A model generated the notes under the pieces. It was not told the origin of the DNA. It saw only the letters and a program-made list of their open reading frames with translations, and did not search any database. This document shows, in pieces, positions 23,360 to 51,901 of a stretch of 64,000 bases of DNA. The position numbers and the translations under genes were made by a program. Each line of letters starts with the position of its first letter. Position 1 is the stretch's first letter. The stretch comes from Gammaproteobacteria bacterium (GTDB lineage: Bacteria > Pseudomonadota > Gammaproteobacteria > DSM-19610): contig JAPHQV010000025.1 in assembly GCA_026197075.1 (NCBI GenBank), positions 1-64,000 of the forward strand, read 5' to 3'.

Positions 23360-23407
23360 AAAAAAAAGCCCCACCTTGTGGGTGGGGCGAAAAACGCTTT
23401 TCAGCGT
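23360..23407 (-). terminator. Two tandem intrinsic terminators (minus strand)
   Basis: On the minus strand, ACGCT-GAAA-AGCGT (23407-23394) followed by TTTTT comes first. Then GCCCCACC-CACAA-GGTGGGGC (23388-23368) is followed by eight T (23367-23360). The second is a strong rho-independent terminator. The nearest minus-strand gene ends 343 bases upstream at 23750. Confidence 0.8.
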
Positions 23408-23572
23408 CGGAGGAGTCGTTGACACTACACCTTGCACAGGAATTTCGATTTCGGGATGCGCCCGGGAACTGGCGGGGACATTCCGAAGCCGACTCCATGC
23501 AGAGGTTATCGGCCATCCTTCTCGTAACTGTAGCGCACCTGCGCCGATCCTTTTCCTCCCTGTTATCCAGTA
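23360..23572 (-). ncRNA. Candidate small RNA ending at the tandem terminators
   Basis: A possible promoter reads on the minus strand: TTTACA (23608-23603), 18-base spacer, TCTATT (23584-23579). It would give a transcript of about 210 bases ending at the tandem terminators. No convincing reading frame lies in it and I do not recognise a known RNA family. The alternative is a long 3' UTR of the 23750-24307 gene. Confidence 0.35.
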
Positions 23573-23749
23573 AGAGCAAATAGAGTGCCAGTTTATTCCA
23601 TTTGTAAACTACCTCATTGAAACCAGATAGTTAGCGTATCCCCGCCCTGACCTCACGCGGCAGGATCCGGAGCAAAAATGCACGGTAGCCGGATATCTGG
23701 CGCAATTTGCACCAGAAAGCGTCAGTTCCCGTCAGTAAATGGCCGGTCT

Positions 23750-41067: not shown

Positions 41068-42534
41068 ATGCAATACCGTGACCTGCGCGACTTCATTGCC
41101 CAGCTGGAAAGCCGCGGCCTGCTCAAACGCATCCAGGCCGAGGTGGATCCCTGCCTGGAGATGACCGAGATCTGCGACCGCACCCTGCGCGCCGGCGGAC
41201 CCGCGCTGCTGTTCGAGAATGCCAAGGGGCATTCGGTCCCGGTGCTCGGTAACCTGTTCGGCACGCCGGAACGGGTTGCACTGGGCATGGGCGAGGAATC
41301 GGTCGACGCGCTGCGCGAGGTGGGCCGGCTGCTTGCCTTCCTCAAGGAACCGGAACCGCCCAAGGGCTGGCGCGATGCCCTGGACAAGCTGCCCCGCTAC
41401 AAGAAGGTGCTCGACATGGCACCGAAGGTGGTGAAGAAGGCCCCCTGCCAGGAGGTGGTGCTGGAAGCCGAGGCGGTGGATCTGTCCCGCCTGCCCATCC
41501 AGACCTGCTGGCCCGGTGATGCCGGCCCGCTCATCACCTGGGCGCTGGTGGTCACCCGGGGACCGTACAAGGAGCGGCAGAACCTGGGCATCTACCGCCA
41601 GCAGGTCATCGGTCGCAACCGGGTCATCATGCGCTGGCTGGCGCACCGTGGCGGCGCGCTGGACTACCGTGACTGGCAGGAGGCCCACCCCGGTGAACGC
41701 TTCCCCGTGGCCGTGGCCCTGGGTGCCGATCCTGCCACCATCCTCGGTGCCGTCACGCCAGTGCCCGACAGCCTGTCGGAGTACGCCTTCGCCGGCCTGT
41801 TGCGCGGCTCGAAAACCGAACTGGTACAGTGTCTGGGCAGCGAACTGCAGGTACCGGCCAGCGCCGAGTTCGTGCTGGAAGGCTACCTGGAACCGGGCGT
41901 CGAGGCCGACGAGGGACCCTTCGGCGATCACACGGGCTACTACAACGAGGTGGACCGCTTCCCGGTGTTCACCATCGAGCGCATCACCCACCGCCGCGAT
42001 CCCATCTACCACAGCACCTACACCGGCCGCCCCCCCGACGAGCCGGCGGTGTTGGGCGTGGCACTGAACGAGGTGTTCGTGCCCCTGCTGCAAAAGCAGT
42101 TCCCGGAGATCACCGATTTCTACCTGCCGCCTGAGGGCTGTTCCTACCGCATGGCGGTGGTGAGCATGAAGAAACAGTACCCCGGCCACGCCAAACGGGT
42201 GATGTTCGGCGTCTGGTCCTTCCTGCGCCAGTTCATGTACACCAAGTTCGTCATCGTCACCGACGACGATGTCAACGTGCGCGACTGGCAGGACGTGATC
42301 TGGGCCATGACCACGCGCATGGACCCGGTACGCGACACCCTGCTGGTGGAGAACACCCCCATCGACTATCTCGATTTCGCCTCGCCGGTATCCGGCCTGG
42401 GTGGAAAGATCGGCTTCGACGCCACCAACAAACTGCCCGGGGAAACCAGCCGCGAGTGGGGCCGTCCCATCGTCATGGACGAGGCGGTTAAACAGCGCGT
42501 GGATAGCCTCTGGAACGAGCTCGGTATCGACTGA
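41068..42534 (+). CDS. ubiD: UbiD, 3-octaprenyl-4-hydroxybenzoate decarboxylase
   Basis: 488 residues from [19 protein letters not shown] (E. coli 497). The prFMN-dependent decarboxylase signature runs throughout: [105 protein letters not shown] and [28 protein letters not shown]. It removes the carboxyl group in ubiquinone synthesis. The frame is open 33 codons upstream, but the chosen ATG matches the family. The 3' end overlaps a convergent gene by 47 bases. Confidence 0.96.
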
Positions 42535-43156
42535 CGTATCGGACACCGCCCAACATGGCCACACCTGCCAGCAGCAATCCAGCGGCGGGGGGCAGAGGCA
42601 CGAGAGCCTGCGGTGTCCCGTTCACGCTCTGGACATTGATCGATGAGTGAAGCACCAGGCCACGGTCTTCCGTCAATTCGGGAAGCCCCGACCAGGGCGG
42701 GGGGTGGCCAAGCTCCAGGCTCATGCCCTGGTCGCCGGTGAACGCCACCATCGCATCGGTCAGTGACACGAAAGGTTGCGCAAGCTGTTGCTGAAGATCG
42801 CGCGTGAAGGAATCGTCCTCCGCCTGTCCTCCATCATTCGATGACCAAGGCAGGTTTGGAGACAGCACGAGCAGTGAACTCGCACTCCCACGCAGCATCG
42901 GCAATAAAGTCGCGTTCTGCTCACCGGAAAGTATGCGCTCCTTCAAGATCTCCTTCATGTCATCCAGGCGTATATCCACCACACAGGTGGCTGCGATGAT
43001 GCCGGCACCAAACCGATCATCGCGAATGGCATGCACACTTTTGCAGACTTGTCTGACGTCGTAGCCGACAGTCGCTGCACTGGTGTTCGCGGGGAAGGCA
43101 AGAAGCATGGAATGGTAAAGTACTGCGGAAATGGCGGTGCAATATCGGTGTTTCAT
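42488..43156 (-). CDS. Secreted protein with VPxxP-type C-terminal sorting signal
   Basis: 222 residues from [21 protein letters not shown] (GGAGG upstream), with a probable signal peptide ending near TSAA. The body is not recognised. The C-terminus has the tripartite form of PEP-CTERM/VPxxP sorting signals: VPLPPAAG, then a hydrophobic helix ([15 protein letters not shown]), then a basic tail ([12 protein letters not shown]). Such proteins are processed by an exosortase and often belong to extracellular matrix. No exosortase is in the window. It overlaps ubiD at the 3' end and lies at the border of the Fap-like locus. Confidence 0.65.
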
Positions 43157-43767
43157 TGCAGACCTCCTGTCGTGGTGAATGATTTCACCCCGATTCCTAG
43201 CCTTGCACACTTCGCATCAAATGCAAGCGTTCACCTTAGTCGGGACGATCGTCGATCTGAACGCATGATCAACGAACATCGCAGCGACATTTCACTCATG
43301 CATCAAACCTGTGACAAATGGATGCACGCAGTCAGCGCATTGATAATCAGTCTTTTCCGGGCCAATGCTTCAGCATGGATTGAGTTTTATGTCACACGTC
43401 AGTGACAACAGCGTATGCGTACCGGCAAATACCTTCCTTGTCATGATGCCTGCACGTCAATCATGCAAGGCACGGTAAGAAACTGATTATTCATCGCTTT
43501 GATGCACCACAGGCGACCACGCCTTTATCGCGATGGCGCTGATAGCACAGATTTCAGCCCGTTCCACTTGTCGCAATTCGGGATCGTTCATCGGAATCCT
43601 CAATAGCCACTGTACCGTGGCCACCAATCAATCACCTTGAAATACAGAAGCTTCGCTACGAAACCTGTCAATGGCACGATGCTTGCTGGCTGCTTACTTC
43701 TCGGTTGCATAGCGCGCCTGAGAATGATCCATACAGAACGGCAACCTCAAGGAACAGGAGAATTCCA
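43157..43767. other. 611-bp upstream region of the Gly-rich gene, gene-free
   Basis: AT-richer than the flanks. It carries the sigma-54 promoter at 43672-43687. At 43626-43640, about 45 bases before the -24 element, AATCAATCACCTTGA resembles an IHF site but has one extra base in the spacer. No credible reading frame was found. The size leaves room for activator binding sites. Confidence 0.6.
43672..43687 (+). promoter_or_regulatory. Sigma-54 promoter (-24/-12)
   Basis: TGGCACGATGCTTGCT matches the consensus TGGCAC-N5-TTGCW at every fixed position, with the correct GG-to-GC spacing. Transcription would start near 43698, giving a leader of about 70 bases to the Gly-rich gene at 43768. A VpsR-like sigma-54 activator is encoded 4.5 kb downstream. 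Confidence 0.88.
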
Positions 43768-45324
43768 ATGATCAAACATCAATATCTCGTTGCGGGATTA
43801 TCAGCCGTTGCCATGGCGGTACTGACCGCCACGGCAACTGCAAATCCAAAGGCCAAGTTCGGTGACAACAACGACCTGGCCGTGACAGCCACTGCAAATG
43901 CGAGCGCCGACGGTGGACAGGGCGGTGTCGCAGATGGCGGAAGTAGTGGTGACGTCTACGGCGGGGATGGCGGCGAAGGAGGCTATGGCGGCACCGCCAA
44001 TGCCAGCGACAGCACTGGTGGCGACGGCGGAGACAGCAACAACAGCGCCAGCCAGGCCCAGTCGGACGAATCGACGACCAACGACAACAATACCACCAAC
44101 TCAGGTACCGGTGGCGCCGGGGGTGCAAGCACCAATACCGCCGGCACCGCGGGTTCCGGCGGCGGTGGCGGCGCCGGTGGAACCGCCGGGAATTCCACCG
44201 GCGGAGTCGGTGGCAACTCCTATGGTGGTGCGGGAGGGACCGCGGAAGCCTATGCCGAGTCCTTCAACACCGACATCGAGGTAATCGCCTACCAGGAAAT
44301 GCACTCCAATGTCACGGGGGCACCCATCACCATCCACGGTGGTGTTTCCGGTAATGGTGGCATGGGAGGTAACGGTGGTAATGCCGGTAATGCCGGTGAT
44401 GGTGGCTATGGAGGTGATGCCGACTCCTACAGCTACGGAGATGCCGGGGACGGCGATGCCGGCGGTGATACCGACAGCGCAACCGCCTGGGGCGATGGTG
44501 ATGGCGGCTACAGCGGCATGACCGGGAATGCCGATTCCTACGGCGACGGTGACGGCGGAGACAGCAACAACAATGGCAATGCTGATGCCGCGGGCCATGG
44601 TGACGGTGGCTATGGCGGCAGCGGTGGCGAGGGCGGCTATGCTGATGCCTATGGAGACGGTGACGCGGATGGCGCCATGGGTGGCAGTGGTGGCAGTGGC
44701 GGAAATGCCGGTACAGGTACCGACAACAACGCCAATGACGATGCAGTGGACACCGCGGGCGACGACCGCGCAGGCAACGACAACAACCAGGCCAATGGCG
44801 CGGCTGGCGCAGCCGGTGGTGCCGGAGGATCCACCAGCAACGGAGCCAATACCGCAAGCGGTGGCGGCGGAGGTGCCGGCGCAAGCGGTGGCGCAACCGC
44901 CAATGGCACTAACACGGCCATGGGTGGAAATGGTGGTGCAGGTGGATCCAGCACCAATGGATCCAACACAGCCACATCCGGTAACAGTGGTGCTGGCGGC
45001 GCAACCTCCAATGGCGGCAACACCGCATCCACCGGTGACGGCGGTGATGGTGGTGCTGGCGGCTCCACCGCCAATGGCAATAACACGGCCATGGCCGGAA
45101 ACGGTGCGGCTGGCGGCAATGGTGGCAATGGCGGCAACGGCGGTGCCGGCGGCGACAGCGGCGATGCCGTTGGCGGTGCCCTGACCACCGGCGCGGTCAG
45201 CGTCAACGTGGGTGCTGGCACCTTCGGCGGCATCAACAACCTCAACATCTCATCGGGTCTCTACAACTCGACACTTGGCGGTGTAGCCGTGGCGGCACAC
45301 TCCGGTGTCAGCATCGGAAACTGA
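43768..45324 (+). CDS. Secreted Gly/Asn/Asp-rich repeat protein (putative matrix or fibre subunit)
   Basis: 518 residues from MIKHQYLVAGLSAVAMAVLT with CAGGAG upstream and a signal peptide cleaved near TATAN. The mature protein is glycine-dominated, acidic, free of cysteine and nearly free of Lys/Arg. The first half is built of GGxGG and (D)GDGG blocks (YGGDGGEGGYGG, YGDGDGGDSNNNGNA). The second half has five imperfect 18/21-residue repeats of the form NG-x-NTA-xx-G-xx-GAGG. The last 45 residues are not repetitive (GTFGGINNLNISSGLYNS, VAAHSGVSIGN). It is the first gene behind the sigma-54 promoter. I recognise no family; a Fap-like extracellular fibre or matrix protein is inferred from its neighbours. 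Confidence 0.75.
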   Translation: MIKHQYLVAGLSAVAMAVLTATATANPKAKFGDNNDLAVTATANASADGGQGGVADGGSSGDVYGGDGGEGGYGGTANASDSTGGDGGDSNNSASQAQSDESTTNDNNTTNSGTGGAGGASTNTAGTAGSGGGGGAGGTAGNSTGGVGGNSYGGAGGTAEAYAESFNTDIEVIAYQEMHSNVTGAPITIHGGVSGNGGMGGNGGNAGNAGDGGYGGDADSYSYGDAGDGDAGGDTDSATAWGDGDGGYSGMTGNADSYGDGDGGDSNNNGNADAAGHGDGGYGGSGGEGGYADAYGDGDADGAMGGSGGSGGNAGTGTDNNANDDAVDTAGDDRAGNDNNQANGAAGAAGGAGGSTSNGANTASGGGGGAGASGGATANGTNTAMGGNGGAGGSSTNGSNTATSGNSGAGGATSNGGNTASTGDGGDGGAGGSTANGNNTAMAGNGAAGGNGGNGGNGGAGGDSGDAVGGALTTGAVSVNVGAGTFGGINNLNISSGLYNSTLGGVAVAAHSGVSIGN

Positions 45325-45345
45325 CCCGCGCGATGTTTCCTGTTT

Positions 45346-45377
45346 CTGGCGGGCCATCCCCGGCCCGCCAGTTTTTT
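45346..45377 (+). terminator. Intrinsic terminator between the Gly-rich gene and the rest of its operon
   Basis: CTGGCGGGCC (45346-45355) pairs perfectly with GGCCCGCCAG (45362-45371) and is followed by six T. It lies 22 bases after the Gly-rich stop and 38 before the next start. If it works partially it would give high expression of the Gly-rich protein and low expression of the processing genes. Confidence 0.88.
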
Positions 45378-45414
45378 CATGGTAGCTAGCTCGGCAAACA
45401 AGAGGTAAAGCACG

Positions 45415-45792
45415 ATGAAAACGAAATGCTGGGAACAAGCGTGTGAAAGATTGCCTGCCAAGATCCTGGCCGCACTCCTGACGACGGCAAGCAGCAACCT
45501 ACTGGCTGATGATCATGCCAGTGACCTGGATTCCCTGAACGTGGCCAATTCCATCGAGCTCGACGCGTTGCGCGGCATGAATGGCGACACGCGCATTCGG
45601 GTGGAAACCAATCAGCAATTGAATGCCAGCGTGACCGGCAGCAGTTTCACGGCGGGCACGATCACCGGGGGCTCGGTCACCTTTGCCGAGAATGCCCTGG
45701 AAAATTTCAGCGGTATCGGCCTTTTCAATGTGGTGACCGGGAACAATAACGCGGTGGACTCGGCCATCGGTGTCACTTTCAACATGCAATAA
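45415..45792 (+). CDS. Small secreted protein of the Fap-like locus, with ELDALRGM motif
   Basis: 125 residues with AGAGG before the ATG. A weak N-terminal hydrophobic segment (PAKILAALLTTASSNLLA) may be a signal peptide. At residues 48-55 ELDALRGM resembles the ELEAQRGG leader motif of the protein encoded at 46517, with GM instead of GG. The C-terminal part is rich in Asn, Thr, Ser and Gly with alternating hydrophobics (ASVTGSSFTAGTITGGSVTF, NVVTGNNNAVDSAIGVTFNM), fitting beta-strand or fibre-like sequence. It is seven bases upstream of the C39 peptidase gene. No known family recognised; it may be a minor fibre component or peptidase substrate. Confidence 0.65.
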   Translation: MKTKCWEQACERLPAKILAALLTTASSNLLADDHASDLDSLNVANSIELDALRGMNGDTRIRVETNQQLNASVTGSSFTAGTITGGSVTFAENALENFSGIGLFNVVTGNNNAVDSAIGVTFNMQ

Positions 45793-45799
45793 CCGAAAC

Positions 45800-46513
45800 A
45801 TGCAAACCGTACATTTGTCATTGCGGGTCTGTTGCTTGTTCACATTCCTGCTGATTGCCGGACAGGCCAACCACGCCCTTGGCGGCCAGGTATTGATTCA
45901 GGGTTTCCCCGGATCCTTTTCGGTGCCGGTAAAAAGTCTCAAGGAAGCGCGCTGGGACAGGGTAATCCGACAGCAATATGATTTCAGTTGCGGCTCGGCG
46001 GCGGTCGCCACCTTGCTGAGTCACCACTACGGGATGAAGATCGATGAGGCGGAGGTTTTCCAGGCCATGTTCAAGGCCGGCGACCAGGCCAAGATCCGCG
46101 CCGAAGGCTTTTCCATGCTCGACATGAAACGCTTCCTGGACAGCCAGGGACTTCAATCCGATGGCTTCCGCATGACGCTCGACCAGCTACTCAAAATAGG
46201 CGTTCCCGGCATCGTCCTGGTCAATACCCAGGGATACCGGCACTTCGTGGTACTGAGAGGCATGCGTGATGGGACCATACTCCTCGCCGATCCGGCCATC
46301 GGCTCGATTACCGTCCCACGCGCCCAGTTCGAAGCGATCTGGGATGGGACCGTCCTGGCTGCCCGCGCAAACCTTCAGGTGGCCAGAAATCATTTCAACA
46401 GCATCCGTGACTGGGAGCCCTGGCCTAGCGCGCCCATCACCCGGGGCATGGATCGATCCGGCTTGGGCATGTTCGTATTATCGTTGCCAGGACGCAACGA
46501 ATTAGGGAGATAG
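45800..46513 (+). CDS. Secreted C39-family peptidase, FapD-like
   Basis: 237 residues from MQTVHLSLRVCCLFTFLLIAG, a signal peptide. The C39 papain-like core has its catalytic Cys64 in RQQYDFSCGSAAVATLLSHHYG, His148 in GYRHFVVLRG and Asp164 in ILLADPAIGS. C39 enzymes cleave after double-glycine leaders; most are domains of ABC exporters, but FapD of the Pseudomonas Fap amyloid operon is a free, exported version with this same motif. Here no ABC domain follows, and the neighbours are a FapF-like barrel and secreted proteins with double-glycine-like motifs. It is tightly packed in an operon (7 and 3 base gaps). A frame-compatible GTG at 45770 lies within the preceding gene. Confidence 0.82.
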   Translation: MQTVHLSLRVCCLFTFLLIAGQANHALGGQVLIQGFPGSFSVPVKSLKEARWDRVIRQQYDFSCGSAAVATLLSHHYGMKIDEAEVFQAMFKAGDQAKIRAEGFSMLDMKRFLDSQGLQSDGFRMTLDQLLKIGVPGIVLVNTQGYRHFVVLRGMRDGTILLADPAIGSITVPRAQFEAIWDGTVLAARANLQVARNHFNSIRDWEPWPSAPITRGMDRSGLGMFVLSLPGRNELGR

Positions 46514-46516
46514 GCC

Positions 46517-47158
46517 ATGGACAATCCGTCACAATCGTATATGGATTACTGCCGTCTGGGTTCACTGGCGACACTCACCTGGCTGTCATGCAGCGTGACT
46601 GCCATTGCGTCACCTGCTGCTTCCGGCGGGTTTGCCTGTACCAGCTGTTCAGTGCTGTCCCAGCTTGAGCTCGAGGCGCAACGAGGCGGTTTTTCATTCG
46701 CCGGTCTCAACTTCGAGTTCGGCGCCAATATACGTTCCTTTATCGATAACCGCCTGGTCCTGGAAAGCATCATCACCATCACGCAAGAGGGGACCATTCA
46801 GCACCAGGCCGTCTCACTGCCGGACAACATGCCAGATACCACCCAGGTCACGAGCGTCGCGCCGCAGCCGGGGACATCCACTCCCAAGTCCACCATCACG
46901 AACGCACCATCCAACGTGGATCTTTCCGGGCTCGATAATGCCCTTGGCGTGAGCGTAAATGACCACAAGGGTTTCACCGCCGCCCTGCACGAAGCGACCC
47001 GTCAGCGCATCACCAGCACCCTCATCAATACCGCAAATCACCGTGATTTGCGTCAGGAACTCGAGGTCAGGGTCAATGTGGAGAACTTCCGACAGTTTCA
47101 CCAGGACGTGCGCCAGAGCCTGCTGAACAACCGCCTCGAATCTTCACGACTACGCTGA
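46517..47158 (+). CDS. Secreted protein with double-glycine leader motif (possible FapE-like component)
   Basis: 213 residues; AGGGAG precedes the ATG. The hydrophobic N-terminus (LGSLATLTWLSCSVTAIA) suggests export. Residues 47-58 read LSQLELEAQRGG, matching the double-glycine leader consensus LSxxELxxIxGG at all fixed positions but one. A CxxC pair lies just before (Cys41, Cys44). After the GG come FSFAGLNFEFGANIRSFI and IITITQEGTIQHQAVSL, a linker rich in Thr/Pro, and a helical C-terminus (FTAALHEATRQRITSTLINT, NFRQFHQDVRQSLLNN). It is the last plus-strand gene of the cluster. It may be processed by the C39 peptidase upstream. A FapE relationship is possible but I could not verify it. Confidence 0.65.
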   Translation: MDNPSQSYMDYCRLGSLATLTWLSCSVTAIASPAASGGFACTSCSVLSQLELEAQRGGFSFAGLNFEFGANIRSFIDNRLVLESIITITQEGTIQHQAVSLPDNMPDTTQVTSVAPQPGTSTPKSTITNAPSNVDLSGLDNALGVSVNDHKGFTAALHEATRQRITSTLINTANHRDLRQELEVRVNVENFRQFHQDVRQSLLNNRLESSRLR

Positions 47159-47193
47159 ACCCGGGGCTACGCCCTCGATCATCCTGCGCGCCC

Positions 47194-48254
47194 TCATATC
47201 GCATAGGGCAGACGCAGGGTGATCCCCACGTCTGGGGCGTCCGCGGTTATCCCCAGCTCCAGGTTCACATTGGCATTGAGTCGATCACTAATGCGGTGAC
47301 TGAAACCCAGCAGCAAGGAGCCCACGTCCAGACTGGAACTCGACAGGTTCACACCGTTGATCGTGGTGCTACTCGAGCGGATGAAATCGTGCTTGTACCC
47401 GAGCGAGAACGAGGCGCGTGAATTGATCGAATAGGCCATACCGAAACTGAAGCGGACCACGTCACCCGGATCCACATTGCCAATGGTCTGGTCATCGCTC
47501 CCCTCAACCACGAAGGTCTTGTTGACGTCCTCGTCGAAATTATACAGATACCCAAGGTTTGCATAGAACACCGCGGGATCGGATGGGTACAGCGCCGTCA
47601 CGCTGGGCTCCACCGCATGGAAACCGGATCCGGTGGGCAGGCTGGTCTGTATCCCCGCGCTGTTGCGTGACACATCATAGGGACCCTCACCCGTGGTGGA
47701 CTTGTAGCGCAAGTTTCCAATGAAGATCGGCCAGCCATTCCTTCCGGCATTCATCTGGTAGTGCAGGGCCAGCTCCATATCTCCGATGCCATCACCTTCC
47801 AGGTCACGGGTGACTTGTGGTTCGCTGACGACGGAGGGAATGGTGGCCCGCAAAGTATCGTCACGCCAGATATAGGGCAGCCTGCCTTCTATTTCCAGCC
47901 TGGGTGTTATCCCATAGCGCAAGGTAAGCGCTGGTGAGATCAGGTTGCGGTCGGCATCCTCGGCTTCCAGTATACCGATCAGAAAGGTTTCCAGGATCTC
48001 GACGCCCAGGAACGACAGGCGGTTGATCTGGGAATTGGAGAATTGCAGGGAAGGCTCGATGACCCATGTTCCCTTCGGCGTCAGGACGCCGCCGATATTG
48101 GCGATCGCCTGTATCTCCGGTCGCGTCTCGACCGTGGGTTCAGGCGGCGCCTGGCCAACGGGCTGGTCCGGTGGCGGGACATCCGCCCAGGCCGCGGCAG
48201 GAAACATTATGGTCGTCACCAAAACGAATGAAAGGGAGTAATCATTTTTTTTGT

Positions 48255-48258
<4 letters not shown>
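47194..48258 (-). CDS. Outer-membrane beta-barrel protein, FapF-like transporter
   Basis: 354 residues. A signal peptide (ending MFPAAAWA) is followed by a Pro-rich segment (VPPPDQPVGQAPPEPTVETRP) and then GGVLTPKGTWVIEPSLQFSNSQINR, the start of a barrel. Amphipathic strands alternate to a C-terminal aromatic-poor strand, VGITLRLPYAI. The pattern TLRYGITPRLEIEGRLPYIWRDD belongs to the phenol-MetA-degradation/FapF superfamily. FapF is the trimeric pore that exports Fap amyloid subunits. The long coiled-coil plug helix of Pseudomonas FapF is not evident. The ATG overlaps the regulator stop (ATGA), so the two are translationally coupled. Confidence 0.7.
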
Positions 48259-49700
<1,442 letters not shown>

Positions 49701-49874
49701 GCATCAGCCTCCTGTATTGTGTGACCCACTCGGTCAGGGCAAAGCAGGTGGTGCGGCAGGCCATATACCGGCGCCCATCGACACACCACCTGAAGTGCAG
49801 ATTGACCAGGAGTAATTTTTATTATGTAAAACAACAAGAAAGAATGTATCCGCAGGCGCGCGGAAAAGAATATG

Positions 49875-49898
49875 AAAAATGCAGTTTACCCCTGCATT
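49875..49898 (-). terminator. Intrinsic terminator after the SDR epimerase gene
   Basis: On the minus strand AATGCAG (49898-49892) pairs with CTGCATT (49884-49878) across a 7-base loop, followed by a T run. It lies about 30 bases after the stop at 49929. Confidence 0.65.
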
Positions 49899-49928
49899 CG
49901 TTGAGTGTAGTCCAGGATACGTGCTTTG

Positions 49929-50798
49929 CTATGGATCAAGGAAACAGCTGTCCAGCCCCGCTTCCAGGTGCGGGAATCGCAGCTCGATACCCAGTTCCTT
50001 CAGCATGCGCTCGTTCCTGAGCCGCTTCGATTCCCGCATATATCCCAGCATACCCGGGGTGAGCTGCTGTTCCGCTTCCGCTCGATCCAGCGTGGGAGGA
50101 CGCGGCAGGCCGGCACGATCGGCGATGCGGTTGAAGTAGTCGACCATGTTGGAAGGATGGCCATCGCTGACGTTGTAGGCCGTGCCGGGTACACCACGCG
50201 CCATGGCGGCACGGCAAATCGCGGCCAGGTCGTCCGCGTGAATGCGATTGGTGTAGGGACACTGGTCCTCGCGCAACAGCGGCAGACCCTTGCGCAAACG
50301 CTCCAGGGGCAGGCGTCCGGGTCCGTAGATACCGGGTACGCGCAGGATCACCACGGGGATCCCGGTGCGTTCCGACCAGGCCTGCAGCTGGCGTTCTGCA
50401 TCGAGACGACGCAGACCGCGCGTGGTGTCCGGCCGCAGGGGCGCGTCCTCGTCGATCCAGGCGCCAGCGCAGTCACCGTACACGGCACTGGTGCTGATGT
50501 AGACGATGCGCCGCGGCAAGCCGTCCCGCTCCAGGGCGGCCAGCACCGCGGACATGCGCGGATCGCGGTCTCCACTGGGCGGTGGCGGGGCGAAATAATA
50601 GAGTTCGGTACCCGCGGAGGCCAGTGACGGCAAGGGCAGGTCCAGGTCCGCCACCAGTGCCTCGATGCCCAGGTCCCGCAGTTGCGCCGCGCTCGGCGGC
50701 GAGCGCACCAGACCCGTGACCGCGGCACCGGACGCCTGGCAGGACCGGGCCACGCGCCGGCCGACATCACCACAGCCCAGGATTAGCACAGCGTTCAT
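49929..50798 (-). CDS. NAD-dependent epimerase/dehydratase-type SDR protein (YeeZ-like)
   Basis: 289 residues. The extended-SDR fold starts MNAVLILGCGDVGRRVARSCQ (GxxGxxG-like) and has VYISTSAVYGDCAG (Tyr of the active-site triad region, although the usual YxxxK is not obvious), VVILRVPGIYGPGRLPLERL and NRIHADDLAAICRAAM. The substrate is unknown. A good match exists to short epimerase-like proteins encoded near hem genes in gammaproteobacteria. It is divergent from the 2Fe-2S reductase gene. Confidence 0.8.
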   Translation of the reverse strand: MNAVLILGCGDVGRRVARSCQASGAAVTGLVRSPPSAAQLRDLGIEALVADLDLPLPSLASAGTELYYFAPPPPSGDRDPRMSAVLAALERDGLPRRIVYISTSAVYGDCAGAWIDEDAPLRPDTTRGLRRLDAERQLQAWSERTGIPVVILRVPGIYGPGRLPLERLRKGLPLLREDQCPYTNRIHADDLAAICRAAMARGVPGTAYNVSDGHPSNMVDYFNRIADRAGLPRPPTLDRAEAEQQLTPGMLGYMRESKRLRNERMLKELGIELRFPHLEAGLDSCFLDP

Positions 50799-50863
50799 CG
50801 GTTTACCTCACTTCACAAATCAGCCAGACTGGACGACTTTTGTCGGATCGGGGAATGGGCGAC

Positions 50864-51901
50864 ATGGCCTACCGGGTACAGATTCAGCCGAGCGGCCACC
50901 AGTTCGAGGTGCGCACGGGTGAAACCCTGCTGGATGCCGCCCTGCGCCAGGGCCTGGCATTGCCCTATGGCTGCCGTAACGGCAGCTGCGGCAGTTGCAA
51001 GGGACGCGTGCTCACCGGGCAGTTCCAGTATAGCGGCGGAGAACGCCCGCCTGGTCTCGACGCCCAGGAAGAGGCCAAGGGTCTCGCCCTGTTCTGCCAG
51101 GCAATACCCGGGAGCGATATGAGTATCGAAGCACGCGAAATCCACCGTGTCGGTGACCTCCAGGTCAAGATCCTGCCCTGCCGGGCGGAAGAATTGCGCC
51201 AGGCGGCCCATGACGTCATGGTCATCCAGCTCAAGCTGCCGGCCGCGGAGCGCATGCAGTTCCTGGCCGGCCAGTACCTGGAGATCCTGCTCAAGGACGG
51301 ACGCCGGCGCGCCTTTTCCATCGCCAACCCGCCCCACGAGGATGCCAGGATCGAACTGCACATCCGCCATGTGGAAGGCGGAACCTTCACCGACCATGTG
51401 TTTGCGGACATGAAGGCGCGCACCCTGCTGCGCATCGAGGGTCCCTTCGGCAACTTCTTCCTGCGCGAGGAGTCCGACCGGCCCATGCTGCTGATCGGCG
51501 GCGGCACCGGTCTGGCACCCCTGAAGAGCATGATCGAACATGCCTTCCATGTGGGCCTGAAGCGGCCCATGCATCTGTTCTGGGGGGTACGCGCACGCCG
51601 CGACCTGTACATGGATGAACTGCCCACGCGCTGGGCAGCGGAGCACGATGACTTCCAGTACACCCCCGTTCTCTCCGAACCCCGTCCCGAGGACGCCTGG
51701 GCGGGGGAGACAGGCACGGTGGTGGAAGCGGTACTGCGCCGCTATCCCGACCTCAGCGGTTTCGATGCCTATATCGCCGGCCCCCCCGCCATGTGCGAAG
51801 CCGCCCGCGACGCCTTCCGGGAGCAGGGTCTGCCGGAGGAGCGCATGTTCTCCGACGCCTTCGAATATGCCGCCGACAACCCGGTGGTCGATTCGAAATA
51901 A
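50864..51901 (+). CDS. 2Fe-2S ferredoxin/FAD reductase (CDP-6-deoxy-delta-3,4-glucoseen reductase-like)
   Basis: 345 residues. An N-terminal plant-type ferredoxin domain has GCRNGSCGSCKGRVLTG with a fourth Cys in LFCQAIPG. Then come an FAD domain (RRAFSIANPPHED) and an NAD(P) domain (PMLLIGGGTGLAPLKSMIEHA, AYIAGPPAMCEAARDAF). Homologues are often annotated as AscD-type deoxysugar reductases, but no deoxysugar genes lie here, so a general flavin or oxygenase reductase role is more likely. Starts at 50855 and 50840 (TTG) are in frame. It converges on hemY across a palindromic terminator. Confidence 0.82.
   Translation: MAYRVQIQPSGHQFEVRTGETLLDAALRQGLALPYGCRNGSCGSCKGRVLTGQFQYSGGERPPGLDAQEEAKGLALFCQAIPGSDMSIEAREIHRVGDLQVKILPCRAEELRQAAHDVMVIQLKLPAAERMQFLAGQYLEILLKDGRRRAFSIANPPHEDARIELHIRHVEGGTFTDHVFADMKARTLLRIEGPFGNFFLREESDRPMLLIGGGTGLAPLKSMIEHAFHVGLKRPMHLFWGVRARRDLYMDELPTRWAAEHDDFQYTPVLSEPRPEDAWAGETGTVVEAVLRRYPDLSGFDAYIAGPPAMCEAARDAFREQGLPEERMFSDAFEYAADNPVVDSK

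Follow-up and report, generated by a model that had tools for sequence, protein, structure and literature searches.

Transcription of fapA-E in Pseudomonas fluorescens PF07 begins at a start, mapped by 5'-RACE, that lies behind a −24/−12 element, and deletion of rpoN or of brfA, the adjacent gene in reverse orientation, lowers fap expression (PMC9207406). BrfA has been described as a c-di-GMP sensor (PMC13101488). In Burkholderia cenocepacia, the biofilm matrix is connected with c-di-GMP and RpoN through BerB, an enhancer-binding protein that carries a GAFTGA motif (PMC5552954). The GAFTGA motif of VpsR from V. cholerae is defective, and that protein is probably not sigma-54 dependent (PMC3162934). 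By term search, the main text of a 2013 survey of Fap loci mentions neither sigma nor RpoN (PMC3792158), and the titles and abstract openings reached by our literature search, whose coverage leaves out most subscription papers, describe neither the co-occurrence across lineages nor the dyad reported below.

Here we analysed a 64,000-nucleotide stretch of DNA from a gammaproteobacterium (contig JAPHQV010000025.1, positions 1 to 64,000; hereafter the window). Its fibre-export locus resembles the BrfA/RpoN/fapA-E arrangement in that an apparent RpoN-type −24/−12 promoter precedes the putative fibre genes and an activator gene lies adjacent, in reverse orientation, at the far end, and in that export genes of the FapD and FapF types are present, as in PF07. 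We consider it highly probable that 43672-43687 is a working sigma-54 promoter of a gene for a Gly-rich protein and that the VpsR-type gene at 48255-49700 encodes its dedicated activator, a reading that draws on promoter match, gene order, the GAFTGA motif, conservation and co-occurrence, all of which can be read from the DNA itself.

The −24/−12 element ahead of the Gly-rich gene

Sigma-54 promoters follow the consensus TGGCACG-N4-TTGCW. The element TGGCACGATGCTTGCT (43672-43687, forward strand) agrees with it at every fixed base, the GG and GC being at their fixed spacing, which confirms the initial annotation of a perfect, correctly spaced match. Counted from the GC at 43685-43686, the predicted transcript would start near 43698 and carry a 70-nt leader up to the ATG at 43768. 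GG and GC are likewise given as the elements of sigma-54 promoters in the study of PF07 (PMC9207406). The match exceeds chance: a single strand of the intergenic region (611 bases) is expected to hold 0.00025 perfect sites, and the 2.99 Mb genome, in which RpoN is encoded, contains 15 perfect sites (7 + 8) versus 2 with the reversed pattern, only two of the 15 being in the window. At up to two mismatches the window holds 47 sites against 39.7 expected, which is chance level, so that loose −24/−12 matches carry no meaning and we counted only perfect or high-scoring sites ahead of secreted genes.

The surroundings of the 13 other perfect genomic sites were inspected, 4 kb each. Several of these sites lie directly ahead of co-oriented genes, namely flgB and genes for PilZ-like, PAS-GGDEF and outer-membrane proteins, where the flgB and PilZ-like names were read from translations and GGDEF was confirmed by a domain test. 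The PilZ-like case is a small protein, assigned by eye, behind a perfect site at G000:C2:55975-55990 (minus strand; L043). Three other sites (L046, L047 and L054) fall within long ORFs and are probably chance matches, which gives some footing to the view that the window match is also accidental and that the Gly-rich gene owes its transcription to sigma-70 or to read-through. We regard this as very improbable, given the low expectation and the conservation of the element: in a sister species (G001) all 16 promoter bases are identical, compared with 200 of 264 in the stretch between the promoter and the candidate dyad described below. In addition, among the 49 loci with an adjacent activator (first set, below), 44 have a counterpart of the site ahead of a gene for a secreted protein, a scan of 42900-50900 gave no sigma-70-like promoter ahead of the Gly-rich gene (its sole match was at 45954), and the upstream gene is divergent. 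This divergent gene (42488-43156, minus strand) encodes a secreted protein of 222 aa with a weak VPLPA-CTERM-like tail (NCBIfam, 13.2 bits; cut-off 25.35), and it bounds and shares the regulatory region with the Gly-rich gene.

No ORF follows the second perfect site in the window (23575-23590, minus strand). Some 200 nt past it there is a strong terminator together with a conserved GACTCCTCCGACGCTGAAAAGCG block, and 23360-23562 (minus strand) is a candidate for a conserved sigma-54-driven small RNA. A −24/−12 site was located at −182 to −207 from the GACTCCTCCGACGCTGAAAAGCG block in all ten loci read (L214-L223). The candidate region has any match in 17 of 56 relatives, and its resemblance to Rfam anti-hemB is weak (28.1 bits against 49.5).

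Organization of the export locus and its activator gene

The Gly-rich gene (43768-45324, forward strand) encodes P0001, a secreted protein of 518 aa with 31% Gly and a putative fibre subunit, which falls in no Pfam or NCBIfam family and whose C-terminal tail resembles the tails of its Halomonas and Thiohalobacter counterparts. It is followed by an intrinsic-terminator-like hairpin with a T run (45346-45377, forward strand; 10 pairs, 9 of them G-C). A hairpin of this sort follows the subunit gene in only 11 of 54 loci, and a post-subunit terminator was rejected as a general feature. Three further genes lie on the same strand. P0002 (45415-45792) is a small secreted protein of 125 aa, possibly a minor subunit or nucleator, that reaches no family cut-off and recalls in position the small genes of loci L033 and L035. 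P0003 (45800-46513) is a FapD/FilB-like C39 peptidase (Pfam C39, 8.8e-23), and P0004 (46517-47158) is a secreted protein of 213 aa in a FapE-like position, with no family in Pfam or NCBIfam and with look-alikes, judged by eye, after the C39 gene in L031-L035. On the minus strand, P0005 (47194-48258) is a FapF/FilC-like outer-membrane barrel that matches the NCBIfam FapF model and the solved FapF structure 5o67 (E 8e-24).

Neither export protein reaches the equivalog level, with 145 bits for P0003 against the C39_FapD cut-off of 330 and 133 bits for P0005 against the FapF cut-off of 700. No FapC-type subunit or FapA was found, since P0001, P0002 and P0004 have no NCBIfam match at E ≤ 1 in a library whose coverage of FapA and FapC is unconfirmed. 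As the peptidase and the barrel are homologous to the Fap proteins yet stay below the equivalog cut-offs, the locus is best called Fap/Fil-like rather than strictly Fap. The product had earlier been described as matrix; we replace this wording with a Fap/Fil-like secreted fibre, which is what the homology of the export genes suggests.

The sigma-54 activator that the initial annotation had placed at the opposite end is indeed encoded there, with its GAFTGA motif intact. P0006 (48255-49700, minus strand) has a sigma-54 interaction AAA+ domain (PF00158, 233 bits) with Walker A and GAFTGA motifs and a Fis-type helix-turn-helix. Its gene and that of the barrel overlap, at the stop codon of the former and the start of the latter, and the two are probably co-transcribed, which would place the barrel outside the switch of the promoter. 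The proposed resemblance to VpsR holds in that P0006 has the Pfam VpsR domain (PF20161, 33.5 bits; cut-off 23.7), while its N-terminal part alone matches solved VpsR only at E 0.077. As a model for P0006, V. cholerae VpsR is less apt, and because of its defective GAFTGA motif we take BrfA and BerB to be the better ones. In an alignment of 48 activators, which leaves aside L075, L077 and L116 with their cut or split regulator ORFs, GAFTGA is present in 44, GSFTGA in three and GAFTNA in one; the VpsR domain is found in 41, and a recognition helix with the pattern S-R-x-T-L-Y-R recurs in most. By analogy with BrfA, c-di-GMP is probably the signal for P0006. The FleQ-type c-di-GMP-binding residues are mostly absent from P0006 in the alignment. 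W240 was considered as a c-di-GMP residue of VpsR and dropped, since it belongs to VpvC in the paper checked.

Co-occurrence across loci and a candidate operator

A scan with a C39 alignment gave 80 loci in named genomes, which together with the window and five earlier loci made 86. The first set comprised the 77 in which 1500 bp or more of sequence preceded the peptidase gene, the other nine having been left out beforehand. Sites were scored by a −24/−12 scheme of our own at a score of at least 9.4, one of four thresholds computed, and were counted when they lay outside a secreted ORF and were followed, at a distance of 25-230 nt, by a start whose product had a signal peptide by a crude criterion; any ORF of the locus matching P0006 at E < 1e-20 was taken as an adjacent activator. 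A site preceded a secreted-protein gene in 44 of the 49 loci with an adjacent activator and in 8 of the 28 without (6 of 25 when L087, L095 and L113, which have short right flanks, are excluded). The reversed-pattern control gave 0/49 and 0/28, and the opposite strand 3/49 and 0/28. Halomonas or close kin account for 20 of the 80 scan loci, so the test by genus, with labels typed from record titles, is the fairer one; it showed the site in 24 of 27 with activator versus 5 of 19 without (Fisher p = 2.5e-5). A second set of 26 loci, made up of a class sample and earlier-collected loci, pointed weakly in the same direction and was not significant alone (10/18 with activator versus 1/8 without, p = 0.084; reversed control 1/18). 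Synteny, co-occurrence in other lineages and a common upstream dyad support the pairing of the promoter with the far-end activator that the initial annotation had put forward.

Five of the eight site-bearing loci without an activator in view belong to Ralstonia or Burkholderiaceae and have full flanks. These loci (L110, L118, L124, L126 and L129, from Ralstonia and a Burkholderiaceae relative) have a conserved −24/−12-like site of the TGGCACCGATTATGCA type before the fibre gene and no activator within about 10 kb; their activator may be encoded elsewhere. That such loci exist, and that the window's own genome has 13 matches to P0006 at E ≤ 1e-60, P0006 included, would suit a true sigma-54 promoter driven by another activator, for example a response regulator of the NtrC or PEP-CTERM type, with the VpsR-type gene acting elsewhere. 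We consider this improbable in view of the co-occurrence of site and adjacent activator and of a dyad tied to these promoters; moreover, among the matches listed, the others in the genome lack the N-terminal part of P0006, as their alignments with it begin only at residue 102.

The dyad in question, at 43390-43407, is TGTCACACGTCAGTGACA, with the arms TGTCAC and GTGACA around the spacer ACGTCA. From its gap-8 enrichment and conservation, we predict it to be the probable site of the activator, which narrows the candidate binding region from 515 bases to 18. It is the only exact copy of TGTMAC-N6-GTKACA in the genome. In the 44 first-set loci with activator and site, within the 350 bp ahead of each site, the palindrome TGTMA-N8-TKACA occurred exactly, at gap 8, in 8 loci and, at each of the remaining gaps between 0 and 20, in no more than one; in shuffled sequences the exact gap-8 dyad averaged 0.025 and never exceeded 1. 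With at most one mismatch it was present in 14 of the 44, most Halomonas loci being without it and having mostly weaker forms. Of the 10 second-set loci that have both activator and site, on which the motif was checked next, 7 had it at gap 8 with at most one mismatch and none exactly, and other gaps (4-7 and 9-12) gave 0-2 loci. Two of nine site-bearing loci without an activator in view have an exact dyad, both near contig ends. In G001, both arms are unchanged and the spacer differs at one position (17/18 overall), against identities of 164/233 and 200/264 on either side.

The dyad is separated from the −24 element by 264 bp, a rather long distance for an activator site, and no IHF-type site, by match to the consensus, was found between the two. 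Inverted TGTCA/TGACA repeats could suit other regulators. This, together with the finding of a dyad at one mismatch or fewer in only 21 of 54 loci across both sets, fits the alternative that the dyad belongs to another regulator and that the activator binds elsewhere in 43157-43671. The alternative deserves some weight but appears unlikely to us: ahead of these promoters gap 8 is favoured in different lineages, the S-R-x-T-L-Y-R helix is common to most of the activators, and no second exact copy of the dyad occurs in the genome.

A one-mismatch dyad also lies 100 bp upstream of the promoter of a PAS-GGDEF diguanylate cyclase gene (L044 889-1857; G000:C5:38891-39856, minus strand), which is preceded by a perfect sigma-54 site (G000:C5:39902-39917, minus strand) that is kept in G001. 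One arm of this dyad is broken in G001, and we do not claim the gene as a second target of P0006.

With P0006 as the dedicated activator, the locus would work as follows. P0006 would most likely bind the dyad at 43390-43407, and looping of the DNA would bring its GAFTGA-bearing AAA+ ring into contact with sigma-54 RNA polymerase at 43672-43687, so that the promoter opens and much Gly-rich subunit is made. At the hairpin beginning at 45346, only part of the transcription would continue into the genes for the small subunit, the peptidase and the fourth protein. The strength of this hairpin suggests that the subunit is kept in excess over the export genes.

Comparison with known control circuits

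We tentatively propose that a module of a VpsR-type sigma-54 activator, TGTMAC-N6-GTKACA and a −24/−12 promoter may have stayed with fibre-export loci in Alpha-, Beta-, Gamma- and delta-type Proteobacteria, even as the secreted subunits changed in their bodies between Gly-rich and Asn/Ser-rich. Still more weakly, in this genus it may also drive the PAS-GGDEF diguanylate cyclase and so form a positive c-di-GMP loop. The same control is suggested in Halomonas, Thiohalobacter, Thauera, Geobacter relatives and others, and the promoter and operator code is testable in any of these species. A search for Pseudomonas-type loci with the FapD equivalog model placed none of 369 genomes above its cut-off.

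Among characterized regulators, VpsR shares with P0006 the N-terminal VpsR domain, the AAA+ domain, the Fis-type helix-turn-helix and a role in biofilm control, which for P0006 is predicted; unlike VpsR, P0006 carries an intact GAFTGA, and its own locus contains a perfect sigma-54 site. BerB is likewise an enhancer-binding protein with GAFTGA, but it has no N-terminal input domain and activates the regulator gene berA rather than a fibre gene (PMC5552954). The putative Fil pilus system (NCBIfam FilB and FilC) combines a C39 peptidase with a barrel as here, although the FilB and FilC scores of 131 and 75 bits are below the 145 and 133 bits of the Fap models.

The closest parallel is with PF07, where P0006 is likened to BrfA by published description and gene order. 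In PF07, fapF is outside the induced set (PMC9207406), just as the barrel here appears to be outside the reach of the promoter. The two loci differ in that the subunit here is Gly-rich and without a FapC match, no fapA is seen, the peptidase and the barrel remain below the NCBIfam FapD and FapF cut-offs, a terminator follows the first gene, and the barrel lies beside the activator on the other strand. The present locus, divergent and encoding a putative Gly-rich fibre, would extend the c-di-GMP/RpoN/amyloid circuit beyond the one Pseudomonas from which this kind of circuit is known. By sequence comparison the scheme of control appears more widespread; what is new here is a testable operator and a wide distribution.
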